Shown in pieces: positions 6,886-45,624 of a DNA stretch of 46,523 bases. The position numbers and the translations under genes were made by a program. The first letter of the stretch is position 1, and the number at the start of each line of letters is the position of its first letter. The notes beneath the pieces were generated by a model. The model saw nothing but the letters and a program-made list of their open reading frames with translations. It searched no databases and was not told the origin of the DNA. Source of the stretch: a virus; the IMG/VR virus record IMGVR_UViG_3300023178_000083, positions 1 to 46,523 of that record; one strand, 5' to 3'.

Positions 6886-7503
6886 ATGCACTGGACAACT
6901 AAAGTATCACCACTTATCAAAGACATCGAATTAAAACACTCTCCCGTTATGATTCGAGTAAATGATTTCACCGAGGAAGCCGCGGCCGACTTTGCTGCAA
7001 AAATGGGAGTAGCTCAAAACACTGGACAGCCTGTCATTCCCGTGATCATCGATTCTTATGGAGGTCAAGTATATTCGCTTATGTCTATGATTGCTGCGAT
7101 TAAATCTTCTAAGGTACCTGTTGCGACTATCGTAGAGGGCAAGGCCATGTCGTGTGGTGTTATTCTTGCTTCGTGTGGAGCGAAAGGAATGCGATATATC
7201 TCAGAAGACGCTACATTGATGATTCACGATGTGAGTTCAGGTGCTTGGGGCAAAAACTCTGAGATCCAAGCAAGCGCAGATGAAACGAAACGTTTGAATG
7301 AAAAGATCTACCAGATTCTTGCAGAAAATACTGGTAAAACAGCGAAGTGGTTTCACAAGAAGATCAACAAGCGCGGACGTGCCGACTGGTTCGTAGAACC
7401 TGAAAGAGCAATCGAAATTGGTATTTCTGACAAAATTGGAGTTCCAACTCTAGACATTAAAGTTGATGTGTCTATCAATTTCGTAGAACCCGAAACAAAA
7501 TAG
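6886..7503 (+). CDS. clpP: ClpP-like serine protease
   Basis: A 205-residue ClpP-fold peptidase. The nucleophile is Ser89 in GKAMSCGVIL, and the base is His114 in ATLMIHDVS. The 25-residue gap is the same as between Ser97 and His122 in E. coli ClpP. The acid is probably Asp167 in ADWFVEP, with AIEIGISDKIG matching the family's C-terminal block. It could pair with a host ClpA/X unfoldase, especially as this phage also has a ClpS homologue at 14579. A second reading is a ClpP-type prohead protease, but it has no fused scaffold domain and is not next to recognisable portal or capsid genes. It has its own promoter and ribosome binding site. Confidence 0.85.
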   Translation: MHWTTKVSPLIKDIELKHSPVMIRVNDFTEEAAADFAAKMGVAQNTGQPVIPVIIDSYGGQVYSLMSMIAAIKSSKVPVATIVEGKAMSCGVILASCGAKGMRYISEDATLMIHDVSSGAWGKNSEIQASADETKRLNEKIYQILAENTGKTAKWFHKKINKRGRADWFVEPERAIEIGISDKIGVPTLDIKVDVSINFVEPETK

Positions 7504-10534: not shown

Positions 10535-10906
10535 ATGGATAGAAGAAAATTAAGAAGGCTTTTACGAGAAGCCCTTGACCAAGTACCGGCATTTGACAAA
10601 TTGCCAGAAAGTGCATTACAAGGTGATACGTTTATTCCTGCCGGCACCCTTAAAGAAATCTTGGATGTAGATGGATTCGCTGAATTCAAAGAAGAACTAG
10701 CAATGATGTGTGAAATGTTGGAAAACGGAGATCAAGTGTATCACGTGATGGAACCTGCAGAACATCAGTTCATCCGAAACTCCATGTTGGAAATAGCCCA
10801 AGATGGCGATATGGATTTCGACAACTGGTTGACAAAGTCTGCATTTGAAAGAGTATTCATTGGTGATGAGCCGAATCCATCGATGATTCGTTGGACTATG
10901 CCCTAA
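10535..10906 (+). CDS. Tagged small protein
   Basis: A 123-residue acidic protein whose first 12 residues (MDRRKLRRLLRE) are a very short basic tag ending in L-R-E before Ala13. The body (DGFAEFKEELAMMCEMLENGDQVYHV...) is helical and carries no recognised family. The ribosome binding site is weak. Confidence 0.65.
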   Translation: MDRRKLRRLLREALDQVPAFDKLPESALQGDTFIPAGTLKEILDVDGFAEFKEELAMMCEMLENGDQVYHVMEPAEHQFIRNSMLEIAQDGDMDFDNWLTKSAFERVFIGDEPNPSMIRWTMP

Positions 10907-13330: not shown

Positions 13331-13359
13331 TTGTAAAGTTTTCAGCTTCTGTATATAAT
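13331..13359 (+). promoter_or_regulatory. Sigma70-like promoter for the Fpg gene
   Basis: TTGTAA (13331-13336), 17 bp, TATAAT (13354-13359); CGGAGG follows before the TTG start. Confidence 0.7.
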
Positions 13360-13395
13360 TGTACTATACACACAAAACAATATACGGAGGTAATT

Positions 13396-14354: not shown

Positions 14355-14604
14355 GAAACAAAGGGAAGAAATGAAAAAGAAGATCGTGTCTGTCGAGGAA
14401 ACAGTAAAGGTTCTAAAATTACAAGAAACAAATCTGTTGGAGGCCATCAGGCTTCATCCAGAAGACCATCCAGAAATCCAACGATGGGTGCACGAGGTAT
14501 TTATCGGAGCCGACTATATCGTTAGATTGGAAAACTCTATCAACATAATGAAAGAAGCATTGAAGACTAGGAGGAAACGTGGCGGAAAAGAAGAAGACGA
14601 ATAA
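14347..14604 (+). CDS. Small helical protein, unknown
   Basis: 85 residues from ATG 14347, which overlaps the previous stop by eight bases and has AGAGGTG upstream. Highly charged and largely coiled-coil (KKQREEMKKKIVSVEETVKVLKL split across the heptads); ends in RRKRGGKEEDE. No family recognised. Its 3' end overlaps clpS by 26 bases. Confidence 0.65.
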   Translation: MNKKQREEMKKKIVSVEETVKVLKLQETNLLEAIRLHPEDHPEIQRWVHEVFIGADYIVRLENSINIMKEALKTRRKRGGKEEDE

Positions 14605-14920
14605 AGATGGCGGTTCTGGCGTAGATCTCTTAGATAAAGAGAAAGCAAAGAACAAAGTGAAACCGCCGAAAAAATACAAAGTTGTCTACCATAACGACGA
14701 CTACACGCCTATGGACTTGGTAGTATTTTCGCTGATGCATTTCTTTCGTAGAGATGCGCAAGCTGCATATCAAATCATGATACATGTCCATGAAAAAGGC
14801 AAAGGCATCGCGCAAGGCGGGTTATCCAAAGAGATAGCCGAAACAAAATGCAATCGTGTGGTACAATTCTTTAGAGAAAATGGGTATCCATTGCTCGCAA
14901 CATTCGAACCGGAGGAATAA
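14579..14920 (+). CDS. clpS: ClpS-like adaptor
   Basis: Adaptor that delivers proteins with destabilising N-terminal residues to ClpAP. GTG start at 14579 after TAGGAGGAAAC. A charged leader is followed by the ClpS core: YKVVYHNDDYTPMDLVVFSLMHFF (the NDDYTPM signature), then the A-xxIM-xVHxKGKGIA stretch and the C-terminal ETKCNRVVQFFRENGYPL region. The 113-residue size is normal. With the ClpP-like protein at 6886 it suggests the phage steers host N-degron proteolysis; ClpA itself is not seen here. Confidence 0.88.
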   Translation: MAEKKKTNKDGGSGVDLLDKEKAKNKVKPPKKYKVVYHNDDYTPMDLVVFSLMHFFRRDAQAAYQIMIHVHEKGKGIAQGGLSKEIAETKCNRVVQFFRENGYPLLATFEPEE

Positions 14921-15938: not shown

Positions 15939-15970
15939 TGTACAAATACTCCTGAAAATGAATTAAATTA
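15939..15970 (+). promoter_or_regulatory. TGTACAAA-class promoter/operator, copy 1
   Basis: GCACATC precedes TGTACAAA (15939-15946); 13 bases later comes GAATTAAATTA (15960-15970). The same parts and spacing occur at 36455, 43314, 46099 and, on the minus strand, 39082. Confidence 0.65.
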
Positions 15971-15996
15971 ATAGTGTAACACTATTAATCAGGAGT
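15948..15996 (+). promoter_or_regulatory. Inverted repeat that can mask the ribosome binding site
   Basis: Outer arms ACTCCTGA (15948-15955) and TCAGGAGT (15989-15996) pair perfectly; inner arms ATTAATAGTG (15967-15976) and CACTATTAAT (15980-15989) flank TAA. The right outer arm contains the AGGAG of the gene at 16001, so read-through mRNA could fold over it. Confidence 0.6.
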
Positions 15997-21946: not shown

Positions 21947-21972
21947 GCTAGTGGGTAACCGCTAGCATTTTT
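21945..21972 (+). terminator. Hairpin with T run, overlapping the -10 box
   Basis: ATGCTAGTGG (21945-21954) pairs with CCGCTAGCAT (21959-21968) around a GTAA tetraloop, with one G-U pair, then TTTTT. It would end methyltransferase mRNA; transcripts from the overlapping promoter would begin near 21953 and lack most of the left arm. Confidence 0.6.
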
Positions 21973-21988
21973 CATTTATGGAGTACAC

Positions 21989-22855
21989 ATGGACACATTC
22001 AAAGATCTTAATTCCGCCTTCTGCGAATCACTTGCAAAACTTAAACGCAAAGGCTCAAACGTATCATCCCGCGGATCGAATCAAAGAGAGATGTTGTTTC
22101 ACAACATTTGTATCCTCGATCCCACCGCACTCACAATCGCACCTCCTATTCGTAAGTTCAAACCCACGTATGCAATCGCCGAATGGCTTTGGTATCTCAG
22201 TCGTGACAGACAGGTCAAGAACATCGGTAAGTTTGCCGACGTATGGAATCAAATACAAGATTCAAAAGGAGAATGTGAATCGAACTATGGCGAATACATG
22301 TTCAATCAACAACATGGAATGAAAACGAACACCACGCAGTGGGAATGGGTTCGAACAGAACTTCTATCAGATCGAGACACCCGTCGTGCAACAATAGCGA
22401 TTAATCAACCTCGACACAAACATGCTAATACAAAAGACTACACTTGTACGCAATATATTCACTTCTTTATCCGAGACAACAAGCTACACCTCGGCGTGAA
22501 TATGCGTTCTAACGATGCAGTGTTTGGTTTTTGTAATGATGTATGGACATTCTGTATGTTTCAACAACTGATGCTTAATGAGCTCAACATGCTCGGTGCA
22601 AACGTAGAACTTGGTCACTATTATCATCAAGCTGGTTCCTATCACGTGTACGAGAAACATTGGCGAATGATGGATCTAATCATCAACAATTATCGTAAGA
22701 CGCATCGAAAGAATTATCCAGATTTGAAAAAATACAAATTAAAAGATACAATAACAACTGAGGCAATCATGCCTCATGCGTTACCACATACAGATATCAC
22801 CCTTGACCAAATTAAACAACACACAAACGAAATTATGGAGTTAATCTATGTCTAA
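21989..22855 (+). CDS. ThyA-family enzyme: possible dCMP hydroxymethylase or dTMP synthase
   Basis: 288 residues of the thymidylate synthase/dCMP hydroxymethylase family: catalytic Cys near 153 (YTCTQY), NMRSNDAVFGFCNDVW, and the C-terminal LGHYYHQAGSYHVYEKH. Aligned by eye without gaps to E. coli ThyA (RSCDVFLGLPFNI), the base-reading Asn177 falls on Asp184 here, the change that marks dCMP-specific enzymes such as T4 gp42. The neighbouring Asn183 leaves room for a shifted alignment that keeps Asn. Because ThyX at 12107 can already make dTMP, a dCMP-modifying role is attractive. It overlaps the next gene by eight bases. Confidence 0.7.
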   Translation: MDTFKDLNSAFCESLAKLKRKGSNVSSRGSNQREMLFHNICILDPTALTIAPPIRKFKPTYAIAEWLWYLSRDRQVKNIGKFADVWNQIQDSKGECESNYGEYMFNQQHGMKTNTTQWEWVRTELLSDRDTRRATIAINQPRHKHANTKDYTCTQYIHFFIRDNKLHLGVNMRSNDAVFGFCNDVWTFCMFQQLMLNELNMLGANVELGHYYHQAGSYHVYEKHWRMMDLIINNYRKTHRKNYPDLKKYKLKDTITTEAIMPHALPHTDITLDQIKQHTNEIMELIYV

Positions 22856-27892: not shown

Positions 27893-28372
27893 ATGAAACG
27901 TAATGAACGAAGAATGGTGCAACTAATAAAAGAGGAATACTCTCGTCGTATCCTTGAGTTGTTTAGAGAAAATGTCAAAGACATTTTCGAAGCCGACATG
28001 TTCGATAAAGAAGGGAATCAACTTCTTTCTCAGGGTTTGAAAGTGCGACACAAAGGAAGTGGCTACGAATACACAGTTGACCATGTTGAAGGCGATGGGG
28101 AAAATGCAACAGTGTTTCTTCGACATCCGGAGGCGCCTCGATTCAAGCCCGGCTCTAGCGAGGCGCAATTGACCGAAGCTGACGAAGATGAAGAATCACG
28201 TATATCTGTGGATCAAGTGGATCTTGCAAAAGTATCTGATGACGAAACGCTGGACATGCAAGTTGCTGCCGATTCGACACAAGATCCGATGGATACGATG
28301 AAGCAGATGGGAAAAGGTTCTCTCCTCAAGATTACGAAATCAGAATTTGAAAAAGAATACGAGGTGAAATAA
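27893..28372 (+). CDS. Small acidic protein with a divergent tag
   Basis: 159 residues from the ATG at 27893; ATGs at 27881 and 27890 are closer to TGGAG (27882-27886) or overlap it. The N-terminus MKRNERRMVQLIKEEYSRR resembles the long-form tag (shared [RK]-E-E-Y-S-R) and contains I-K-E and I-L-E sites; another, I-F-E before Ala, follows at FEADMF. The middle (GLKVRHKGSGYEYTVDHVEGDGENATVFLR) looks like a small beta barrel. TATAAT at 27875 may serve as a -10. No known family. Confidence 0.65.
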   Translation: MKRNERRMVQLIKEEYSRRILELFRENVKDIFEADMFDKEGNQLLSQGLKVRHKGSGYEYTVDHVEGDGENATVFLRHPEAPRFKPGSSEAQLTEADEDEESRISVDQVDLAKVSDDETLDMQVAADSTQDPMDTMKQMGKGSLLKITKSEFEKEYEVK

Positions 28373-29049
28373 TGAACGACAAAACTTTGAAAGAAATAAT
28401 TCAAGAAGAACTTGGACTTAAGAAACAATCTTTGAAAGAAAGTTATGTGACTCAAGCGAAGAAATACGACCTTTCCACAGAGCTTCTTTCTGACAAGAAC
28501 AAAGCAGCGCACCAGGAGCTCCTTGAGAAATACGTAGAGTCTTTGAATGAAGTGAGTACAAAACTCGATACTGCCGACCTTGAGGCGGCCAATCCAAATT
28601 TTTGTGATTTTCGTAGTCTTAAAATTGACGAAGTTTACAATATGAATGCAGCTTACTTGCATGCGTTGTTTTTCGAGAACATCTCAGATCAAAGATCTAT
28701 TATCACGATGGACTCGATGGCATTTATGAGATTGGAAAGAGATTTCGGATCATTCGATAAATGGCAAAAGGAATTTGTTGCTTGTGCATTAAGTGCGAGG
28801 AACGGATGGGCTGTGACTGTATTCTCTCACATGCTTAAAAGATACATCAACGTTGTTGTCGATTTACATTCGCAACAAATTCCTATTGGGTGCACCCCAA
28901 TCATCGTTATGGATTGCTGGGAACATAGTTACTATCGTGACTATCTTTCAGATCGAAAGACATACGTATATGGCATGATGAAAGAATTCGATTGGAATCA
29001 AATCGAAGAAAGATTCAAGAAAGCCGAGAAGATCGCTAAAATCGTATAG
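28372..29049 (+). CDS. Fe/Mn superoxide dismutase-like protein with N-terminal leader
   Basis: 225 residues. After a helical leader (MNDKTLKEIIQEELGLKKQ, with I-Q-E and L-K-E sites) comes a clear Fe/Mn SOD fold. The four metal ligands by position are His47 (AAHQELLEKYVESLN), His97 (NAAYLHALFFENI), Asp181 and His185 (IVMDCWEHSYYRDY, the DxWEHxYY signature). Ligand spacings match bacterial SodB. FGSFDKWQKEF and the SARNGWAV block are also present. It would convert superoxide to peroxide and oxygen if active; some usual active-site residues such as the NHxxYW context are altered, so activity is not certain. Its position among candidate virion proteins suggests packaging. Confidence 0.8.
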   Translation: MNDKTLKEIIQEELGLKKQSLKESYVTQAKKYDLSTELLSDKNKAAHQELLEKYVESLNEVSTKLDTADLEAANPNFCDFRSLKIDEVYNMNAAYLHALFFENISDQRSIITMDSMAFMRLERDFGSFDKWQKEFVACALSARNGWAVTVFSHMLKRYINVVVDLHSQQIPIGCTPIIVMDCWEHSYYRDYLSDRKTYVYGMMKEFDWNQIEERFKKAEKIAKIV

Positions 29050-30578: not shown

Positions 30579-31319
30579 ATGAGCACAATGCCTCCAGCAG
30601 AAAAAGAATATATACTGAATGCCATGCCCGGTTTTGACGATCATCTCTTAAAAGTATTATGGGAAACGATGACCAAGAATGGAGGGCTACAAACGATGGA
30701 CCCTGATGTTCTGAAAGCATTCTACGATGAGTTCGAAAAAAGACCCGGGTTACTCGAATCAATGGCGAACGAATCGAAAAGGAGAAACAAAATGAAATTA
30801 ACAGAATCACAATTACGAAAAGCTATTCGAAAAACAATCGTTGAAGCAAATAATGACCGACATAATCACGTTCACAACGGAATACAGTTGCAGCATGGAG
30901 ATTTGGATTCAGCAGATACAGATTTCCACGATTACGGCGCCGTTTCACATAGGATGATCTCGAACGGTGTTTGGCCAAAAATGTCGACAGAGCTGAAAAA
31001 TGCCGGTGATTGGCAATTTTACGATTGTGGCGACGGATACAGATTTATTCACCATTGCATGGCATGCAAAGACGAAGAGGGTCGAATCATGATGGCTATC
31101 TTCTGCAGAGATAGACAAAATTCTTCTAATGCGACTGCAACGTCTTATGATTGTTATGTTTTAGACTGCGTTCTCATCGAAGAAAAGGGAAAAGGTAAAG
31201 ATCCAAGTTCTTGGTGGTCAGATTTTGCTCCTAAAGGCGAATACTGTGTGAACACTCGGCAGATTGTAGATACATTAGAAGAAGCGTACGATCAATACAT
31301 AGCAAGGTGGGTAGAATAA
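30579..31319 (+). CDS. Helical domain fused to an internal tag and a C-domain
   Basis: 246 residues. Residues 1-70 are a helical domain (YILNAMPGFDDHLLKVLWE, DPDVLKAFYDEFEKRPGLLESM). At residue 72 a complete short tag starts (MKLTESQLRKAIR, then KTIVEA), then an alpha/beta domain with WQFYDCGDGYRFIHHCMACKDEEG. As at 7549, the linker codes for a strong ribosome binding site just before the internal ATG. No family recognised. Confidence 0.7.
   Translation: MSTMPPAEKEYILNAMPGFDDHLLKVLWETMTKNGGLQTMDPDVLKAFYDEFEKRPGLLESMANESKRRNKMKLTESQLRKAIRKTIVEANNDRHNHVHNGIQLQHGDLDSADTDFHDYGAVSHRMISNGVWPKMSTELKNAGDWQFYDCGDGYRFIHHCMACKDEEGRIMMAIFCRDRQNSSNATATSYDCYVLDCVLIEEKGKGKDPSSWWSDFAPKGEYCVNTRQIVDTLEEAYDQYIARWVE
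30792..31319 (+). CDS. Internal-start tagged protein
   Basis: ATG 30792 follows AAAAGGAGAAACAAA and opens a 175-residue product that begins with the short tag; I-V-E falls at residues 16-18 before Ala19. This is the second in-frame tag cassette in the window. Either the full-length fusion, this shorter form, or both may be made. Confidence 0.55.
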   Translation: MKLTESQLRKAIRKTIVEANNDRHNHVHNGIQLQHGDLDSADTDFHDYGAVSHRMISNGVWPKMSTELKNAGDWQFYDCGDGYRFIHHCMACKDEEGRIMMAIFCRDRQNSSNATATSYDCYVLDCVLIEEKGKGKDPSSWWSDFAPKGEYCVNTRQIVDTLEEAYDQYIARWVE

Positions 31320-31645
31320 TGAAACTAACAGAATCACATTTGCGACGGGCCATTCGAAAGAGTATACTCGAAATGAGTACTTCGGGCATTCAATTAACTC
31401 GAAAAGAAAGAGAATTGGAAGAGAAAGCAGGTGCAATGATGGCGGATGTCGCGAGCAATCCACAGCTTGCTGCTCGAAACCTCACAAATGATTTCCGTTG
31501 GGGAGATTCTCGTCACTTGGAAACTTGGATGGAAAAATGTGATCAAGGATACGTTTGTTCGAACCCAGAAATTGATGCTGTACTTAAAGCAGCGTATGAA
31601 ATAATGTGGAAAGAAGGCAGAATCGACAACATAAGAGGACTATAA
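31319..31645 (+). CDS. Tagged small protein
   Basis: 108 residues; ATG in a TAATG overlap with the preceding stop (the frame is open from a GTG at 31307, which is less likely). Tag MKLTESHLRRAIRKSILE ends with I-L-E at 16-18 before Met19. The mature part has a basic-acidic helix (LTRKERELEEKAG) and DFRWGDSRHLETWMEKCDQGY. No family recognised. Confidence 0.72.
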   Translation: MKLTESHLRRAIRKSILEMSTSGIQLTRKERELEEKAGAMMADVASNPQLAARNLTNDFRWGDSRHLETWMEKCDQGYVCSNPEIDAVLKAAYEIMWKEGRIDNIRGL

Positions 31646-33087
31646 TGAAATTAACAGAATCACAAGCAAGACGAGCGATACGCAAATGGTTATTTGAGTT
31701 CGCAACAGATTCAGGAGTATCGCACAGAGCGAGTACTGATGACAAGATCGCAGGTAAACTCGGTGATGACCGTGAAGATCAACCAGCGTCGACTATCCCG
31801 CAGGAAATACCTATCATTGCGACATCTCAGATGAGTACGCAATTAACAGTTGACATGCCTCCAATCGAAGATCCCGATTTCATTCCGGGAACAGTACAAG
31901 AACTCGGCCGTAGCGTAGATCTTCTTTCACAGCAAATACCTCACGAAGAGATCGAATGGTTTTATTCTAAAATGCAAGAACTTGCAGATGAAGCTATCGA
32001 AAAAGGAAATGCAGTTGATCTCACTCCTCTAGGTGATTCTACTGACGGGCCTATCGAAGATGTGATCAGACCATCGCAAAAAGCTTCGCAAGAAGCGGCC
32101 GAAGCAACGAACGAATCTTGGAAACGATGGAGTCGGATGTTGTCTAACACATTGAGAGAAGCGAAGAGCAAAAAGGATCCGTTGAATCTTCGAAGAAGAC
32201 AGTTAAGTCGACAGGACATGAGACTATACAGGCCAAACGAAGAAGACGAATGGACATCAATGGCAGATAGCACCGGCGATGGACAAGTGGATCGAGATGG
32301 AATGGCCGCGGCTACAAAAAGAGAACCGGTTGACATGCAAGGCGAGGTCGTGGGAGGAGAGTATCTACCAACACAAGACGAAATGGAAATGATGGCCGAT
32401 GAGCTCGGAATGGAACTCGATGAACTTCCAGGATACGATCCCAGACGACATATCACGCCAGAAGAACGCCAAGCTAATCTTGCCTCGGGTGATTTCGATG
32501 GGGAAGCAAAGCTTCGTGAACTTGTCGCCATGGGTATCTACCCAAGTGTACGAACTCTATCGGGCATGAAAAAGAAAATCTCTGCAGAGATCGATCCACT
32601 CGTACAAATGTGGGCAACAGCTCGTCCAGCATTCGATTGGCTCACTGGATGGTTGGAAGACGATTACCAATTGTCTTGGAATGGTCAACAGATTGCAGGT
32701 CCTGACGTTTATCAGATGGCGTTGGATGCATACCAGAAATTCAACAAGAAGAATCAGGCGAAATTAGATCAATTGGCCGATGCACTCGAGTCAGGCGCAT
32801 TCTATAAAGAGGCTATGGCCGAAATTGTATTAGCTCCCGTTATTCGAAAGTGGGTACAAGAAGTGAAGGCCGGAAACATGGATGTGTCATCGTCTAAGGC
32901 GAGAAACAATTTCACAATGTCTGACTGGATTCTTGAAACTGTGCTTAATTCTGGATTTGGAAAGAGCGGGAATAAACGAAGAGCAGCAAAACTAGACAAT
33001 GCTATGCAAGGCATGGCAGAGTTTAAACAAGCAATGCAAGTTGCGATGACAAACGACCCAATGGAAGAAGAAGGAGCTGACTCATAA
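31645..33087 (+). CDS. Large tagged protein, likely internal virion protein
   Basis: 480 residues from ATG 31645 (another TAATG overlap; not the upstream start at 31606, which extends into the previous gene). Tag MKLTESQARRAIRKWLFE with L-F-E at 16-18. Residues 150-175 hold NESWKRWSRMLSNTLREAK, a variant of the RW motif followed by an L-R-E|A site. The C-terminal 170 residues (MWATARPAFDWLTGWLEDD..., MSDWILETVLNSGFG) are a separate helical domain. No enzyme motif. It is the largest protein carrying the N-terminal tag here. Confidence 0.7.
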   Translation: MKLTESQARRAIRKWLFEFATDSGVSHRASTDDKIAGKLGDDREDQPASTIPQEIPIIATSQMSTQLTVDMPPIEDPDFIPGTVQELGRSVDLLSQQIPHEEIEWFYSKMQELADEAIEKGNAVDLTPLGDSTDGPIEDVIRPSQKASQEAAEATNESWKRWSRMLSNTLREAKSKKDPLNLRRRQLSRQDMRLYRPNEEDEWTSMADSTGDGQVDRDGMAAATKREPVDMQGEVVGGEYLPTQDEMEMMADELGMELDELPGYDPRRHITPEERQANLASGDFDGEAKLRELVAMGIYPSVRTLSGMKKKISAEIDPLVQMWATARPAFDWLTGWLEDDYQLSWNGQQIAGPDVYQMALDAYQKFNKKNQAKLDQLADALESGAFYKEAMAEIVLAPVIRKWVQEVKAGNMDVSSSKARNNFTMSDWILETVLNSGFGKSGNKRRAAKLDNAMQGMAEFKQAMQVAMTNDPMEEEGADS

Positions 33088-35599: not shown

Positions 35600-36436
35600 A
35601 TGGCCGAATCTGCAGCCAAAGCCAGTTTTCGAAACAAGCTAGAAAATAGTGGATACGTTCCAACCGAAAACTACCGAAACTCAAAGGAAGATGTCAAGAA
35701 GAAAGGCAACAAGGGTACAATAAACCCGCTTTCCACGACATCTCCTGTTATCTCTCATTATCAAGATGACATAGAGGGTCGTAGGAAAATAAAGCGTGCT
35801 TGGCGAGAAACTTACGAATCAGAAGGAAGCCGTTGGGTGGGTTCAGTTTCGAAGGTCTTCTGGCTCGGGTGGGCACAAGATATTGATTATGAAATGCTTC
35901 CCGTCGAAGTAGACGAATTCTTAGAACGATCTTCTGGAACGAACGGTGATGAATTTTCCTGTGTTGGATATCCCGGTGGAGTAGGATTTGTTGATGGTTA
36001 TTCACTAGCTTTCGGTTTTGTAGTTGAAGGAGAGCCCACTTATGCTGTGTCCTCTGACGCGTGGTCACAGGAAGGATGGAGGATCCATCAGCGTGTAAGA
36101 GATTGGTATGCATCTGTTGGTGCCACAGGAGTTCCAAGAAGACCGATGTCATTATCCATTGATGACCTCGTTAATCACGTTGTCTTCACCCAAGAGGACA
36201 CCGTGGATGGAGTCATCGGAGAAGTTATCATTGATCATTGGTCAGTCACTGGGATTGTTGTAAATGATCGAGTCATTCGATCTGTTTTAGACATCGATGA
36301 AGAATTCAACAAAGAAGCTCTCGATTGGCTCGCAAACCTTGAGACAATCTATTCTAACTTGGACATCATTCGGATTGGCAAAGTCAACGATTCCATCGAC
36401 TTAAGTCGATGGCAAGTTTTGGCAGGATTAAAATAG
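35600..36436 (+). CDS. Unknown protein with the C-terminal LAG motif
   Basis: 278 residues beginning three bases after the preceding stop. A basic, disordered N-terminus (KGNKGTINPLSTTSP) leads to an alpha/beta domain (WVGSVSKVFWLGWAQDID, EVIIDHWSVTGIVVNDRVI). It ends VNDSIDLSRWQVLAGLK, the third copy of the LAG motif. No family recognised; I group it with the virion-core candidates. Confidence 0.68.
   Translation: MAESAAKASFRNKLENSGYVPTENYRNSKEDVKKKGNKGTINPLSTTSPVISHYQDDIEGRRKIKRAWRETYESEGSRWVGSVSKVFWLGWAQDIDYEMLPVEVDEFLERSSGTNGDEFSCVGYPGGVGFVDGYSLAFGFVVEGEPTYAVSSDAWSQEGWRIHQRVRDWYASVGATGVPRRPMSLSIDDLVNHVVFTQEDTVDGVIGEVIIDHWSVTGIVVNDRVIRSVLDIDEEFNKEALDWLANLETIYSNLDIIRIGKVNDSIDLSRWQVLAGLK
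36383..36433 (+). repeat. C-terminal RW-LAG motif, copy 3
   Basis: Encodes VNDSIDLSRWQVLAGLK at the extreme C-terminus. Confidence 0.65.
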
Positions 36437-36454
36437 CAACAATTTGTGCACGTC

Positions 36455-36486
36455 TGTACAAATTCTCCTGTGAATGAATTAAATTA
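36455..36486 (+). promoter_or_regulatory. TGTACAAA-class promoter/operator, copy 2
   Basis: GTGCACGTC precedes TGTACAAA (36455-36462); 13 bases later GAATTAAATTA (36476-36486). Confidence 0.65.
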
Positions 36487-36515
36487 TTAGTGTAACTAAT
36501 AATCATTCACAGGAG
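36465..36515 (+). promoter_or_regulatory. Long inverted repeat that can mask the ribosome binding site
   Basis: CTCCTGTGAATG (36465-36476) is the exact reverse complement of CATTCACAGGAG (36504-36515), which holds the ribosome binding site for the ATG at 36522. Inner arms ATTATTAG and CTAATAAT flank TGTAA. Confidence 0.7.
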
Positions 36516-36521
36516 TTTTTT

Positions 36522-37709
36522 ATGGGCGGTGCTCAAAAATCAATGCTACATCCTTACGAGGATCACACTACAACATTCGGTGAACTCATCGGGTTCGCTA
36601 AAACATTCGCACGAGGTGGTACTTTCAACGAGAAAGTCGATGGTTGCAACCTCACATGGCGATTCAGAGATGACACATTCTATCTCGCACGCAACTACGA
36701 ACACTTTCGTTCAGGTGGCCAATCTGTCGAAGACTATCGTGCATACTTAAAAGGCCATCCTGCAGAAGCACAGTTCACTCGTGCACTCGACAGGCTCGAA
36801 CGCATGCGTAATGTCCTCAAAGCTACTCAGTTCTTTGACGACTATGACGACGGTGTATGGGCCAACATGGAAGTGATCGATCAGAAAGCACCACAAATGC
36901 TACGATATGATATAGATTGTTTTGTTATTCACAACCTATGTAGATTCGTTGAGAAGCCAAAGCCACACACTGAGATTGTGAAACCCACGTCTATGAGTTT
37001 AAATCGATTCTCATCGATTCTGTGCCTATCAGGCGTTCGAGTTCTTCACGCTCCTACTGTTACGATAGATCCGATGCATAAGACACACTTCTACCATTTT
37101 CGTGACTACATCATGTCTTGCATGAACTTCTACAATCTTGGACTCGAATCATCCCTACAAGATTACATCTACGCACACATCGTGGACATCTTCGAGCCAG
37201 AGAGTGTGTCAGAAGAACATGCGCAGATGATCGCTGAAAACGTCACAGGCAAAGGCAAGCATGACATACGCAAGATCCGCGAAGGATACGATACAGGTAC
37301 GCAAGAGCTTATCAACAAGATTGGTCTATCGTCCAATAGAATCAAAACGATTAATGGTGCGTTGGAACCGATCAAAGGCGCATGGCTATCTTTCGGTGCG
37401 AGAAGGCTCGAAGGTATTAAGTCCTCTCTTATCAACGATGCAGAAGCAGCAATCGAAAGGCTCGATGACATTATAGATTTCAATATAGACGTTGTCAACG
37501 AACGAAGATTGGAAAAGCCTACAATCTACAATGGTTTTCACGATCAACTCGAAAAGTTTGTATCATACAATACAGAGCCTCAAATTATCGAAGGCTTCGT
37601 ATTCGAGACCGATAGATACATCGTCAAGCTCACCGGTGCATTCCAAGCGTTAAACCGAGTATGCGGCACTGCAAGATACCAATTTGGCGAGTTATTCGAA
37701 GAAGAGTAG
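36522..37709 (+). CDS. RNA/DNA ligase-like nucleotidyltransferase
   Basis: 395 residues of the covalent nucleotidyltransferase superfamily. Motif I is NEKVDGCNLTW with Lys38 as the expected AMP acceptor (KxDG), VWANMEVID is the motif III region, EGFVFETD is motif IV (EGxV) and YIVKLTG is motif V. Ligases of this kind seal nicks or repair cut tRNA/RNA; which substrate is used cannot be read. The middle 170 residues are unassigned. Its leader carries the masking inverted repeat, so it may be timed to a particular stage. Confidence 0.72.
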   Translation: MGGAQKSMLHPYEDHTTTFGELIGFAKTFARGGTFNEKVDGCNLTWRFRDDTFYLARNYEHFRSGGQSVEDYRAYLKGHPAEAQFTRALDRLERMRNVLKATQFFDDYDDGVWANMEVIDQKAPQMLRYDIDCFVIHNLCRFVEKPKPHTEIVKPTSMSLNRFSSILCLSGVRVLHAPTVTIDPMHKTHFYHFRDYIMSCMNFYNLGLESSLQDYIYAHIVDIFEPESVSEEHAQMIAENVTGKGKHDIRKIREGYDTGTQELINKIGLSSNRIKTINGALEPIKGAWLSFGARRLEGIKSSLINDAEAAIERLDDIIDFNIDVVNERRLEKPTIYNGFHDQLEKFVSYNTEPQIIEGFVFETDRYIVKLTGAFQALNRVCGTARYQFGELFEEE

Positions 37710-37795: not shown

Positions 37796-37876
37796 ATGAG
37801 ACTTACAAAACGACAATTGAAGCGAATCATTCGTGAAGAGTATTCCCGACTAAAGAGACGGGGACTCCTTCGTGAA
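37796..37876 (+). repeat. Long-form tag, copy 2
   Basis: Codons 1-27; same first 24 residues as copies 1 and 3 but with many synonymous differences. Confidence 0.8.
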
Positions 37877-38173
37877 GATGATATGTCACAAATGGTAGAT
37901 GACATGAGACTAGCTGGTATGAAACTTCCTATTGACCAAGAACCAGAGATTATCGGTTATCTCGAAGGTTTGATTGGTGCTGATCCTACAGAGATCAGAA
38001 AGGCAGGATATTCCATTGATGAATCAGAATTAGGAGAGGCACGAGCGTGGTTAGCGGCGAACCCTGACCCTGATTTGGAAGATGTTTTGATGCAATTGGG
38101 CCAATCATACATGCAGCAAATGAACTTAGAGTCCCGTCGAAGACGTAGAACACTTTCTAATCGCAGATACTAA
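37796..38173 (+). CDS. Tagged small protein (long-form tag)
   Basis: 125 residues after AAGGAGAAAATAAA. Long-form tag, with L-R-E at residues 25-27 before Asp28. The mature part is acidic and helical (DDMSQMVDDMRLAGMKLP) and ends in an Arg-rich tail (ESRRRRRTLSNRRY). No family recognised. The next gene has the same leader, so the pair probably arose by duplication. Confidence 0.78.
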   Translation: MRLTKRQLKRIIREEYSRLKRRGLLREDDMSQMVDDMRLAGMKLPIDQEPEIIGYLEGLIGADPTEIRKAGYSIDESELGEARAWLAANPDPDLEDVLMQLGQSYMQQMNLESRRRRRTLSNRRY

Positions 38174-38185
38174 GGAGAAAATAAA

Positions 38186-38266
38186 ATGAGACTTACAAAA
38201 AGACAATTAAAAAGAATTATTCGAGAAGAATACTCACGCTTGAAGCGCAGAGGATTAATCAAAGAA
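38186..38266 (+). repeat. Long-form tag, copy 3
   Basis: Codons 1-27; see copies 1 and 2. Confidence 0.8.
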
Positions 38267-38494
38267 TCTATGGCTGATGAAATCGAAGATTACATCGAGC
38301 AAGTTTCTGAATCACTTTACCACGGTGACGAAATGTCCTATATGGAGTTAGAAGATGAGCTCTCGTCGATCATGCCAAACTTTGACTCAGGCTTGTTAGG
38401 AAATGCTATCGACATTATGGTTCAAAGAGGTCAAATCGAAGCACGAACAGGTCGAGATGGACTTGGTGTTTTCATGATGCCATTCTCTGAGTAA
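38186..38494 (+). CDS. Tagged small protein (long-form tag)
   Basis: 102 residues after TAAGGAGAAAATAAA. Long-form tag ending I-K-E at 25-27 before Ser28. The mature part is acidic and ends in a winged-helix-like run (ELEDELSSIMPNFDSGLLG, NAIDIMVQRGQIEARTGRDG, LGVFM), which could bind DNA. The gene converges on the minus-strand NMNAT-like gene with a one-base gap. Confidence 0.78.
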   Translation: MRLTKRQLKRIIREEYSRLKRRGLIKESMADEIEDYIEQVSESLYHGDEMSYMELEDELSSIMPNFDSGLLGNAIDIMVQRGQIEARTGRDGLGVFMMPFSE

Positions 38495-41662: not shown

Positions 41663-43291
41663 ATGAATTTCGATAATAGTCCACAGAAACTCTTATTTAG
41701 AGAAGACGCAAGAGCCGAATTACTAGAGGGAGTGAAACAACTAGCGGATGCGGTAAGTATCACGATGGGACCCGGAGGTCAGACTGTAGTCATTGACCAA
41801 GGTGATGACCGGTTTCCTATCTTGACAAAGGATGGAGTCACAGTTGCAAAATATGTGAACCTACCAAATCGCATGCAGAACCTAGGAGCAAAACTTGTAA
41901 AACAAGCTGCTCAGGGTGCTGCTGAGATCGCAGGTGACGGGACTACGACCAGTACGGTACTCGCTTACAATCTATTTGCCAAAGGCGTTAAGGCCGTCAA
42001 TGCAGGTGTGAACCCAGTGTTGATGCGAAAGGGAATGCAAGCGTGTGCAGAGTCGATCATCACACAATTATCGAAGACTGCAAAACCAGTGAAGACAGAT
42101 GAGGAGATCATACAAGTTGGTACGATAAGTGCCAATGGCGAACGAGAAATCGGTGAGCTATTGTGTGAAGCTATGAACGCTGTCGGTAGGGATGGAGTCA
42201 TCACAGTCGAAGAAGCCAAAGGTTTCAAGACTTCGTTGACAACTGTAGAGGGAACACGACTAGATCGTGGATTTACCTCACCCTATTTTATTAATGACGA
42301 TGGTAGAGGATGCGTGCGATACGAGAAACCCTACATTCTCCTAGCCAATCGTCGGTTTTCATCAATCAAGGAAATATTACCCGTCCTTGAGAAAGTCCAT
42401 CAAAGCGGAAAACCCCTTCTTATCGTAGCAGATGAGGTAGAGGGCGATGCACTTCAAGGACTTGTGGTGAATAACCAAAAAGGTATTCTCAAATGCTGTG
42501 TTATCCGGGCTCCTGAGTTCGGTTCCGGACGAGTACAATCGATGGAGGATCTTGCGTTCCTGTTGAAAACAAAAGTACTCACCACTGCAGACGAGACTAT
42601 CTCTCGGTTAGAGCTAAGTGACCTCGGAACTTGCGAAAGGATCGTAGTTACTAAGTCAGAAACACTTATCGTAGGTGCACCGACAAGTAAGGTTGAGGTG
42701 ACGAATTACTGTGGTAAGATTTCAGATGCTCTTTTGGAACCCGGCCTGACGAACGACGAGAAGGGAATCCTTAACCGCCGATTGGTAAGACTTTCCGGTG
42801 GTGTCGCTATTCTGAAGGTTGGAGGTTCTACCGAAGCGGAATTGCGGGAGCGTAAAGACAGGGTTGAAGACGCACTTTACGCCACTCGCGCTGCTGTTAG
42901 GTCCGGTATACTAGCGGGCGGAGGCACATCACTACTGCGAGCCTCTCGTTCAGTGAAGACCTCCGTACAAGACAATGATTTCCTCGCGGGATGGAATCTC
43001 ATGGTCGATGTCGCTTCTGCCCCTTTATACCAAATCGCCAAGAATGCTGGACGAGTGCCAGAAGTGGTGATTGAAAAAACACTAGATTCAAAGAAAGGAG
43101 ACGGCTACGATGCACGTGAAGATCGATTTGTAGATATGATTAAATCAGGTATCGTCGATCCCGCATTGGTAGTTATCTCCGCATTAAGACATGCAGTATC
43201 AGCTGCGGATAACCTCCTGTCTACGGGTTGTGCGATGCACTCAGTGGAAGAATCAAAAGCCTTGAATACTTTTGAAAATCTTTCAGAATAA
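41663..43291 (+). CDS. groEL: GroEL-like chaperonin
   Basis: 542-residue chaperonin with the family blocks: ITMGPGGQTVVID, LTKDGVTVAKYV, AGDGTTTSTVLA (nucleotide-binding), VEGTRLDRGFTSPYFI, the apical PLLIVADEVEGDALQGLVVN, GGVAILKVGGSTEAELRERKDRVEDALYATRAA and GILAGGGTSLL. It is divergent: the N-terminus is short, the EGIVPGGG motif reads SGILAGGG, and the Gly-Gly-Met tail is missing (ends NTFENLSE). No GroES is visible in the window. Phage-coded chaperonins such as that of Pseudomonas phage EL are thought to fold phage proteins; this one may act alone or with host GroES. Confidence 0.92.
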   Translation: MNFDNSPQKLLFREDARAELLEGVKQLADAVSITMGPGGQTVVIDQGDDRFPILTKDGVTVAKYVNLPNRMQNLGAKLVKQAAQGAAEIAGDGTTTSTVLAYNLFAKGVKAVNAGVNPVLMRKGMQACAESIITQLSKTAKPVKTDEEIIQVGTISANGEREIGELLCEAMNAVGRDGVITVEEAKGFKTSLTTVEGTRLDRGFTSPYFINDDGRGCVRYEKPYILLANRRFSSIKEILPVLEKVHQSGKPLLIVADEVEGDALQGLVVNNQKGILKCCVIRAPEFGSGRVQSMEDLAFLLKTKVLTTADETISRLELSDLGTCERIVVTKSETLIVGAPTSKVEVTNYCGKISDALLEPGLTNDEKGILNRRLVRLSGGVAILKVGGSTEAELRERKDRVEDALYATRAAVRSGILAGGGTSLLRASRSVKTSVQDNDFLAGWNLMVDVASAPLYQIAKNAGRVPEVVIEKTLDSKKGDGYDAREDRFVDMIKSGIVDPALVVISALRHAVSAADNLLSTGCAMHSVEESKALNTFENLSE

Positions 43292-43313
43292 TTTGCACAT
43301 TTTTGTGCACGTT

Positions 43314-43345
43314 TGTACAAACCCATCGAAAAGTGAATTACATTA
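43314..43345 (+). promoter_or_regulatory. TGTACAAA-class promoter/operator, copy 4
   Basis: GTGCACGTT precedes TGTACAAA (43314-43321); 13 bases later GAATTACATTA (43335-43345). It drives the sigma-factor gene, so autoregulation is possible. Confidence 0.65.
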
Positions 43346-43387: not shown

Positions 43388-44113
43388 ATGTCAACAGACC
43401 TATACTACAAGCACGTCGGCAAATTCGACTTATTAACCAAACAACAAGAATACGACCTCGCAGAGAAGGCCAAGAACGGATGTACACGATCCCGTCATCT
43501 TCTTGTCGAACACAATCTTCGCCTCGCACTTCACATTGCAAGACAGTATTCTAAAACTAAATGCCCGATGGAAGAACTCATCGCCGAAGCCAATGTAGGT
43601 TTATGTAAAGCTGTCGAAAAGTTCGATCACACCAAAGGCTTTCGTTTCTCTACGTATGCAACATGGTGGATCAAACAAGCAATCTTACGATATATCTCTC
43701 GATCAACCACTGTCAAGTTCGCATCAGGCGCTAGAAACAAGATATATAAAATCAACATCGCTCGTAAAAACTACTACGAAGAGTTTGGTTGCTATCCCGA
43801 GGATACCGAACTTGCTCATCTCCTCGATATGGACATCCGAGAACTATCCGAATTACGTTGTGCCAACCAATGGCCAATCAACCTCGATCAACCTATCAAC
43901 TCAGAAGCTGGTCGTACTTATGGCGATCTTATCGCGGATGATTCGATACAATCAGATGAAGAACGACTAGACCACCAACAGATCATCGAGGCAATCAAAG
44001 AGAAGTTATCAGAACTTAAGCCACTCGAAGAACGAGTGATGCGACTTCGCTTCGGTATCACACAAGATGCACACGACACAACTATTTTCCCAAAATCACG
44101 ATCACAACAATAA
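43388..44113 (+). CDS. Sigma70-family factor lacking region 4.2
   Basis: 241 residues. Region 2 is clear: EHNLRLALHIARQYSKTK, IAEANVGLCKAVEKFDHTKG, FRFSTYATWWIKQAILRYI (2.1-2.4). Region 3 follows, with NLDQPINSEAGRTYGDLIADD, and region 4.1 (LSELKPLEERVMRLRFGI). Then, where the helix-turn-helix of region 4.2 should begin, the frame ends in an unrelated tail (TTIFPKSRSQQ). The next gene encodes an HTH resembling 4.2. It probably redirects host RNA polymerase to phage promoters. ACAGGAGTAACCC precedes the ATG. Confidence 0.85.
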   Translation: MSTDLYYKHVGKFDLLTKQQEYDLAEKAKNGCTRSRHLLVEHNLRLALHIARQYSKTKCPMEELIAEANVGLCKAVEKFDHTKGFRFSTYATWWIKQAILRYISRSTTVKFASGARNKIYKINIARKNYYEEFGCYPEDTELAHLLDMDIRELSELRCANQWPINLDQPINSEAGRTYGDLIADDSIQSDEERLDHQQIIEAIKEKLSELKPLEERVMRLRFGITQDAHDTTIFPKSRSQQ

Positions 44114-45043: not shown

Positions 45044-45060
45044 ATAGATACGAGGTGACT

Positions 45061-45624
45061 ATGTTTAGAAATGTCTTAATACATCCAAATAAAATTTTAA
45101 GAGCTACCAACAAGACAGTCGATTCAGTCGATGATGTCAAAGAGCTTATCATAGATTTAATCGATACCTGCAACGTCAAGATGGGAGCTGGTCTCGCAGC
45201 ACCGCAGATTGGCATTAACAAGCAAGTTGTAGTGATCAAACCAAAAGTCTTCGGAAAAGAGAATCCCGATCCCAGCGAATACAATCCAGACTATATGGTG
45301 ATCATCAACCCTGAACTAGAAAATACTGGCGACAAAATCACGTGGAAAGAGGGTTGTCTCTCGATACCCGGTATTGACGGTAAAGTTGAGAGGTCTGAAA
45401 CAACATTGATTAAATACACTAGTGAAGGAGGCGAGGTGAAACGATTAATAGCCGAATGGCCATTTAGTGGTGGACTACAACATGAGTGCGATCACCTCGA
45501 AGGAAAATTATTCATCCACAGAATGGAAAAACGAAAAGCAGCTTGGTTAATCGATCGTCTTCGTCGTAAGAAGCGCAAAGAAAAGATCAAGGCCAAACGA
45601 GCAAAGAAGGCAGCTGAGCGATGA
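45061..45624 (+). CDS. def: Peptide deformylase
   Basis: Removes the N-formyl group from new proteins. 187 residues from ATG 45061 (a GTG at 45055 is the longer option). All three motifs are intact: GAGLAAPQIG, EGCLSIPG (metal Cys) and QHECDHLEGKLF (HExxH). Unlike most phage versions, which are short, this one has a very basic C-terminal tail (WLIDRLRRKKRKEKIKAK...), possibly for ribosome binding, as in bacterial types. Stop overlaps the next start. Confidence 0.93.
   Translation: MFRNVLIHPNKILRATNKTVDSVDDVKELIIDLIDTCNVKMGAGLAAPQIGINKQVVVIKPKVFGKENPDPSEYNPDYMVIINPELENTGDKITWKEGCLSIPGIDGKVERSETTLIKYTSEGGEVKRLIAEWPFSGGLQHECDHLEGKLFIHRMEKRKAAWLIDRLRRKKRKEKIKAKRAKKAAER

Follow-up and report, generated by a model that had tools for sequence, protein, structure and literature searches.

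Is the gene that starts at 36522 shut off on RNA that is read through from upstream, and open only on RNA from its own promoter? Its ATG lies in a 46.5-kb virus record, which was analysed as a whole (46,523 nucleotides, hereafter the window), and it is preceded by an inverted repeat that contains a promoter-like -10 element and the Shine-Dalgarno (SD) sequence of the gene. A sequence-only reading of this DNA had proposed an early/late switch of the kind described for phage T4. We followed up this proposal by computation, at the locus itself, at other promoters of the window and in related phages.

Inverted repeat and putative promoter ahead of the ATG at 36522

The arms of the repeat were found to lie and to pair as had been described: CTCCTGTGAATG at 36465-36476 is perfectly complementary to CATTCACAGGAG at 36504-36515, which carries the AGGAG for this ATG, and the outer stem extends to 13 bp (Table 1). 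From 36436 to the ATG the order of elements is TTTGTGCACGTCTGTACAAA-TTCTCCTGTGAATGA-ATTAAA-TTATTAGT-GTA-ACTAATAA-TCATTCACAGGAG-TTTTTT-ATG. The repeat at 36465-36515 is the longest short-range inverted repeat in the whole window, and its pair of arms is unique there, with 0 expected. The MFE of the hairpin had a z score of -8.58 (116 nt) or -7.09 (75 nt), and none of 200 shuffles was equally stable. No Rfam family matched at its gathering score anywhere in the window. The promoter had been placed between the arms; this is right for ATTAAA, the -10-like element, and for the presumed start site, both of which lie inside, but TGTACA lies outside and the left arm sits in the spacer. Transcription of the gene would begin near 36490-36493, about 7 nt past ATTAAA and near the loop. 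An identical copy of the inner hairpin (ATTAAATTATTAGTGTAACTAATAA) was also observed in the relative G003 (L126 1501-1525), before an unrelated gene and without arms that pair with an RBS.

The motif TGTACAAA-N15-ATTAMATTA was found at five sites in the window (15939+, 36455+, 39082-, 43314+ and 46099+; 0 expected), all of which point towards a gene start downstream. We refer to this TGTACA/ATTAMA type as class L, and to the TGTAAA/TATAAT type as class H. A sister motif, TGTGTAGAAA ... TTAMATTA, stands upstream of many genes in G003, a 288.7-kb relative. From their recurrence, their position and the presence of a sigma-factor gene we infer that the class L and class H motifs are promoters, and on the same basis the phage sigma factor would be the reader of class L. 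No Pfam match to sigma region 4 was obtained for the product of 43388-44113. ORF 44133 adjoins the sigma gene, in a neighbourhood which is kept in G003, and has no family match; the guess that it is a detached sigma region 4 had no Pfam support and was given up.

Table 1. Features discussed in the text, in coordinates of the window
Feature	Position	Strand	Remark
mutM promoter, TGTAAA/TATAAT type (putative)	13332-13395	+	GCTTCTGTA in the spacer is the complement of TACGGAGGT at the RBS
Second copy of the architecture	15939-15996	+	TGTACAAA, then ATG 16001; without U-run
Left arm of second copy, ACTCCTGA	15948-15955	+	
ATTAAA of second copy	15962-15967	+	
Right arm of second copy, TCAGGAGT	15989-15996	+	
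Upstream codirectional ORF	35600-36436	+	source of possible read-through RNA
Near-perfect dyad, TTTGTGCA-cgtc-TGTACAAA	36443-36462	+	over the -35-like element
-35-like element, TGTACAAA	36455-36462	+	TGTACA at 36455-36460; lies 5' of the left arm and is no part of the inverted repeat
Left outer arm, CTCCTGTGAATGA	36465-36477	+	fills the -35/-10 spacer; pairs with the RBS region
-10-like element, ATTAAA	36478-36483	+	exactly the 6-nt bulge of the hairpin; putative promoter function
Inner stem, TTATTAGT/ACTAATAA	36484-36502	+	TTATTAGT at 36484-36491, ACTAATAA at 36495-36502; 8 bp, loop GTA
Right outer arm, TCATTCACAGGAG	36503-36515	+	holds SD AGGAG (36511-36515), 5' of ATG 36522
TTTTTT	36516-36521	+	directly 3' of the stem; candidate intrinsic terminator tract
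Ligase-like ORF	36522-37709	+	395 aa; motifs EKVDG, EGFVF, VKLTG
Class L promoter motif (putative)	43314-43345	+	upstream of the sigma-factor gene
Phage sigma-70 family factor	43388-44113	+	Pfam regions 1.2, 2 and 3; candidate reader of TGTACA/ATTAMA promoters

Computed accessibility of the RBS and a proposed mechanism

As a measure of the switch we used the free energy required to open the SD, computed once for RNA that includes the promoter region and once for RNA whose 5' end lies 6-7 nt past the -10 element. By this computation, opening of the SD at 36522 costs 12-14 kcal/mol in the read-through RNA and about 2.3 kcal/mol in RNA started at the putative promoter, and when the 5' half was shuffled 200 times, no shuffle matched the masking. 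T4 gene e gave 14.5 (long) and 2.9 (short) kcal/mol in the identical calculation; its longer transcripts are reported to cut lysozyme synthesis 100-fold (PMC3014915). For T4 soc the difference was much smaller, 1.6 and 0.5 kcal/mol, and the measure therefore misses some known cases.

The best explanation for 36465-36521 is in our opinion a nested promoter insulator, to which we give a probability of about two in three. RNA polymerase that arrives from the upstream genes would copy both arms; provided that this read-through RNA folds in vivo as computed, its stem would hide the SD, and the ligase-like protein would not be made from it. RNA from the TGTACA/ATTAAA promoter would start in the loop, lack the left arm and be translated. 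Since U6 follows the stem, it may also stop the transcription of read-through RNA. Genes with such nesting should then be expressed from their own promoter only.

Computed masking in related phages

Relatives with shared genes were drawn from viral contigs. The 36522 locus lies outside the coverage of the close relatives (G001, G002 and L147); further relatives were G003 (289 kb), G010 (273 kb), G011 (167 kb), G005 (293 kb) and G006 (236 kb), and others were G007 (202 kb), G008 and G004. No named phage is close, the DnaE identity being at most about 30%. Among 351 promoter-bearing genes of the family, 43 lost at least 4 kcal/mol of RBS masking from the long to the short RNA. Shuffling of the spacers gives an expectation of 12.1 (at most 16 in any of 12 rounds), and swapping of promoter halves within a genome one of 15.3; the observed counts are upper bounds on independent cases, since related genomes share loci, and they were obtained with mechanical gene and promoter calls and an assumed start point. 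A loss of at least 8 kcal/mol was seen for 12 of the 351 genes (0.7 expected), and the 36522 element ranked fifth. In unrelated viral controls (124 promoters, 115 loci) a single gene reached at least 4 kcal/mol, where 0.8 was expected, and none reached 8; the stretches of E. coli and KVP40, with 7 promoters each, were too few to serve as controls. The family-wide excess is a direct observation, as are the sequence, the geometry and the computed structures at 36522.

The excess has a defined position. Strong complementarity (<= -11 kcal/mol) was found between -35 and -10 in 30 cases against 8.7 expected, and upstream of -35 complementarity to the RBS was not enriched (11 vs 12.2). The interval from the start to the RBS showed a smaller pairing excess (10 vs 5.0 expected), which the masking reading leaves unexplained. 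We also considered a genome-wide rule and rejected it: when every gene preceded by a gap of at least 45 nt was included, pairing between upstream region and RBS was not in excess, and RBS pairing is therefore not a rule. It is confined to the promoter spacer, and there to a minority of genes. Most of the family cases are on TATAAT-type promoters, and several are replication or repair genes; the DNA-metabolism genes involved include DnaE, RecA, a 5'-3' exonuclease, a D12 methylase, a helicase and mutM. Codirectional and divergent neighbours (39/296 vs 4/55) gave no discrimination.

If the arms co-evolve, masking of an RBS should be better with the promoter half of the same gene than with that of a relative. 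At the 36522 locus (nine genomes) the mean for own halves was 5.27 and for swapped halves 3.32, a result reached by 367 of 50000 permutations (p ~0.007); G003 was represented by a small ORF ahead of the ligase-like gene, and the G004 gene, which is syntenic but no ortholog of 36522, was excluded from the final test. Masking here was strongest in G000 and G008 (0/200 shuffles), then in G010, G003 and G012, and there was little or no change of RBS accessibility in G003, G011, G007 and G013. For mutM (seven genomes) the values were 8.15 and 4.10, reached by 17 of 5040 permutations (p ~0.003); in G010 and G011 the mutM stems are long, include TATAAT and differ in sequence. The 15939 copy (four genomes) gave 5 of 24 permutations and is strong in the window only; covariation of its arms had been seen by eye in the orthologs of G001, G002 and L147, and was discarded on finding that these helices do not beat shuffles. 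The exact arms of 36522 occur in the window and in none of the relatives. The arms vary together at two loci, 36522 and mutM, and not everywhere: covariation in relatives, the lack of which would have spoken against the sequence-only reading, is supported by the swaps at these two loci but not at 15939, and several orthologs of 36522 are without masking.

Terminator-like features and alternative explanations

The T4-style switch proposed earlier holds good in its e-like geometry, in a computed strength about that of T4 e and in the above-chance nesting in relatives, but the proposal overlooked the TTTTTT 3' of the stem. The G+C-rich stem base CUCCUG/CAGGAG and the U6 directly after it have the sequence of an intrinsic terminator; a simple terminator scan omitted 36465-36521 because it allows loops of 3-8 only. 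Like an intrinsic terminator, the element closes an upstream gene array with a G+C-based stem and U6. Unlike one, it has two signals of the following gene built into its stem, the -10 of the promoter as a bulge and the RBS in the 3' arm.

It may be argued from this that the element is chiefly the intrinsic terminator of the upstream array, with a promoter packed inside, and that RBS masking is secondary or incidental in compact DNA. We consider this unlikely, yet it is the most serious of the alternatives. The 13-bp stem in the window is the strongest promoter-spanning stem before a U-run among the 351. Such stems (<= -12 kcal/mol) number 11 in the family, where 2.6 are expected, but this excess is exceeded by that of masking (43 vs 12.1), and unrelated loci show terminator-like stems as well (6 vs 1.6). 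Five or more T in a row lie between the SD and the start in 3 of the 12 strongest family cases and in 4 of 275 weak ones, which agrees with a terminator; against this, most family cases, and the 15939 copy, mask the RBS without a U-run. Promoter-containing hairpins of terminator-like form are also present at 1861-1893 and 21950-21990. The terminator explanation draws further on two class L relatives, G003 and G011, which have GGTTACAT...ATGTAACC and then a T-run at the 36522 locus, with the -10 in the left arm; their RBS lies outside the stem, and its computed accessibility is hardly altered.

Because these two relatives keep the hairpin and the U-run without masking the RBS, we read the logic conserved at this locus as probably being insulation from read-through. 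Some genomes would achieve it by masking the RBS and others by ending transcription, and the window would combine the two.

At 1861-1903, upstream of ORF 1921, the -10 of a TATAAT-type promoter lies in the loop of a hairpin with 10 bp, and TTTTCATTTT comes directly after the stem; the hairpin is kept in G001 and G002, and in G001 the outermost pair is changed on both sides (TAGGG/CCCTA for GAGGG/CCCTC). At 21950-21990, upstream of ORF 21989, TATAAT stands right at the left arm of a hairpin that resembles a terminator (AATGCTAGTG/CGCTAGCATT with a T-run after it).

The symmetry could also be that of DNA: the promoter would be overlaid by an operator to which a protein binds, and the RNA stem would be a by-product. 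Watson-Crick symmetry is complete or nearly so in the inner dyad and in TTTGTGCA...TGTACAAA, and the latter dyad, at 36443-36462 (TTTGTGCACGTYTGTACAAA), recurs nearly unchanged at 43302-43321, over the class L -35-like element of the sigma-factor gene. Nevertheless, the outer arms end exactly at the RBS, they differ among genomes without a common word, and the strong family helices contain 81 G-U pairs in 440, which DNA symmetry does not favour; moreover, an inner dyad of at least 7 is present in only 11 of 24 class L sites. An operator is thus very improbable as the main explanation. Least probable of all is RNA processing, in which a double-strand RNase would cut the hairpin of the long transcript and free the RBS: a stem of 21 paired bases, interrupted by one bulge, might be a substrate for this kind of enzyme, and a cut in the loop would give a 5' end almost identical to that of the promoter, but this leaves the promoter motifs within hairpins across the family unexplained, and many family stems are short.

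Relation to known leaders

In T4 genes e, soc, 49 and I-TevI the SD lies in a helix of the longer transcripts, and RNA from a nearby promoter lacks the 5' strand of this helix (PMC3014915). By computation, the longer transcript of 36522 likewise has its SD in a stable helix, and the putative promoter is placed within the sequence that codes for the 5' strand, so that RNA started there would lack this strand; the computed opening cost of this short RNA is low. The locus differs from gene e in the U6 after the stem and in its gene, which is ligase-like and not a lysis gene; it differs from the T4-type leaders in general in that the large-phage design is in excess family-wide, also on TATAAT-type promoters. 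Since the T4 late promoter TATAAATA is absent from 36443-36521, where TGTACA/ATTAAA stands instead, 36522 is not a strict member of the T4-type leaders. The proposed early/late timing finds no support, both for want of this late motif and because the family cases are mostly on TATAAT-type promoters. As cited in PMC3014915, the mobE leader of phage Aeh1 has a hairpin which hides the RBS of a homing endonuclease gene on longer transcripts; the RBS of a phage gene would be hidden alike at 36522, in a different phage group and gene class.

In the T4 early genes regB, modB, denV and mrh.2 we observed that the RBS can pair with the promoter spacer of the same gene, with a strength equal to that in the large-phage family, the difference being that these are early-type T4 promoters. 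Because these four genes score alike, the design may extend past the textbook cases. No paper on such pairing in the four genes was found in the open-licence literature, nor any report there of the nested design in large phages outside the T4 group. The modB, mrh.2, regB and denV cases are at L213 12507-13130 and 15026-15232 and at L284 12279-12740 and 14939-15355.

Accounts of the T4 leaders of e, soc, 49 and I-TevI usually treat each as an isolated case which bars a protein from the wrong infection stage. The kind of switch is known (T4 e, soc, I-TevI), and what is new are the promoter types, the genes, the scale and the combination with a terminator-like U-run. The same geometry was above chance in a divergent large-phage family, on two promoter types and at DNA-metabolism genes, and at one locus RBS masking seems interchangeable with termination. 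This suggests a general way to insulate genes from read-through in phages with dense, codirectional genes. It would be tempting to hypothesise, although we do so tentatively and with somewhat less conviction than for 36522 itself, that in this family of uncultured large phages the -35/-10 spacers of roughly one in ten promoters act as a built-in anti-Shine-Dalgarno, so that the gene is readable only from its own promoter, that genes for replication and repair with TATAAT-type promoters are among those so controlled, and that at one locus the device has been swapped for, or joined with, a promoter-containing terminator.

The ligase-like gene and other observations

The product of 36522 contains EKxDG, EGxVF and KLTG-like motifs, which we take to be those of covalent nucleotidyltransferases, and the key residues of these motifs are invariant in nine homologs. 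Its predicted model (pLDDT 87) had T4 RNA ligases 1 and 2 as top matches, with E ~1e-3 and low TM-scores. Pfam, PHROG and PDB sequence searches gave no match for this product, and a single-sequence scan for the protein and a phage DNA search found nothing. The earlier label is upheld by the motifs and, weakly, by the fold; ligase-like seems to us a fair name for the product, and one that assigns no substrate.

Many otherwise different ORFs, in the window those at 37796-38494, 31307-33087 and 10535-10906, have an N-terminal motif in common, for example MRLTKRQLKRIIREEYSRL or MKLTESQARRAIRKWL, and G003 has an array of ORFs with a shared N-terminal motif (L130 12500-18200). The window also encodes a Fe/Mn superoxide dismutase-like protein (28372-29049), a GroEL-like chaperonin (41663-43291), ClpP (6886-7503), ClpS (14579-14920) and a peptide deformylase (45055-45624).
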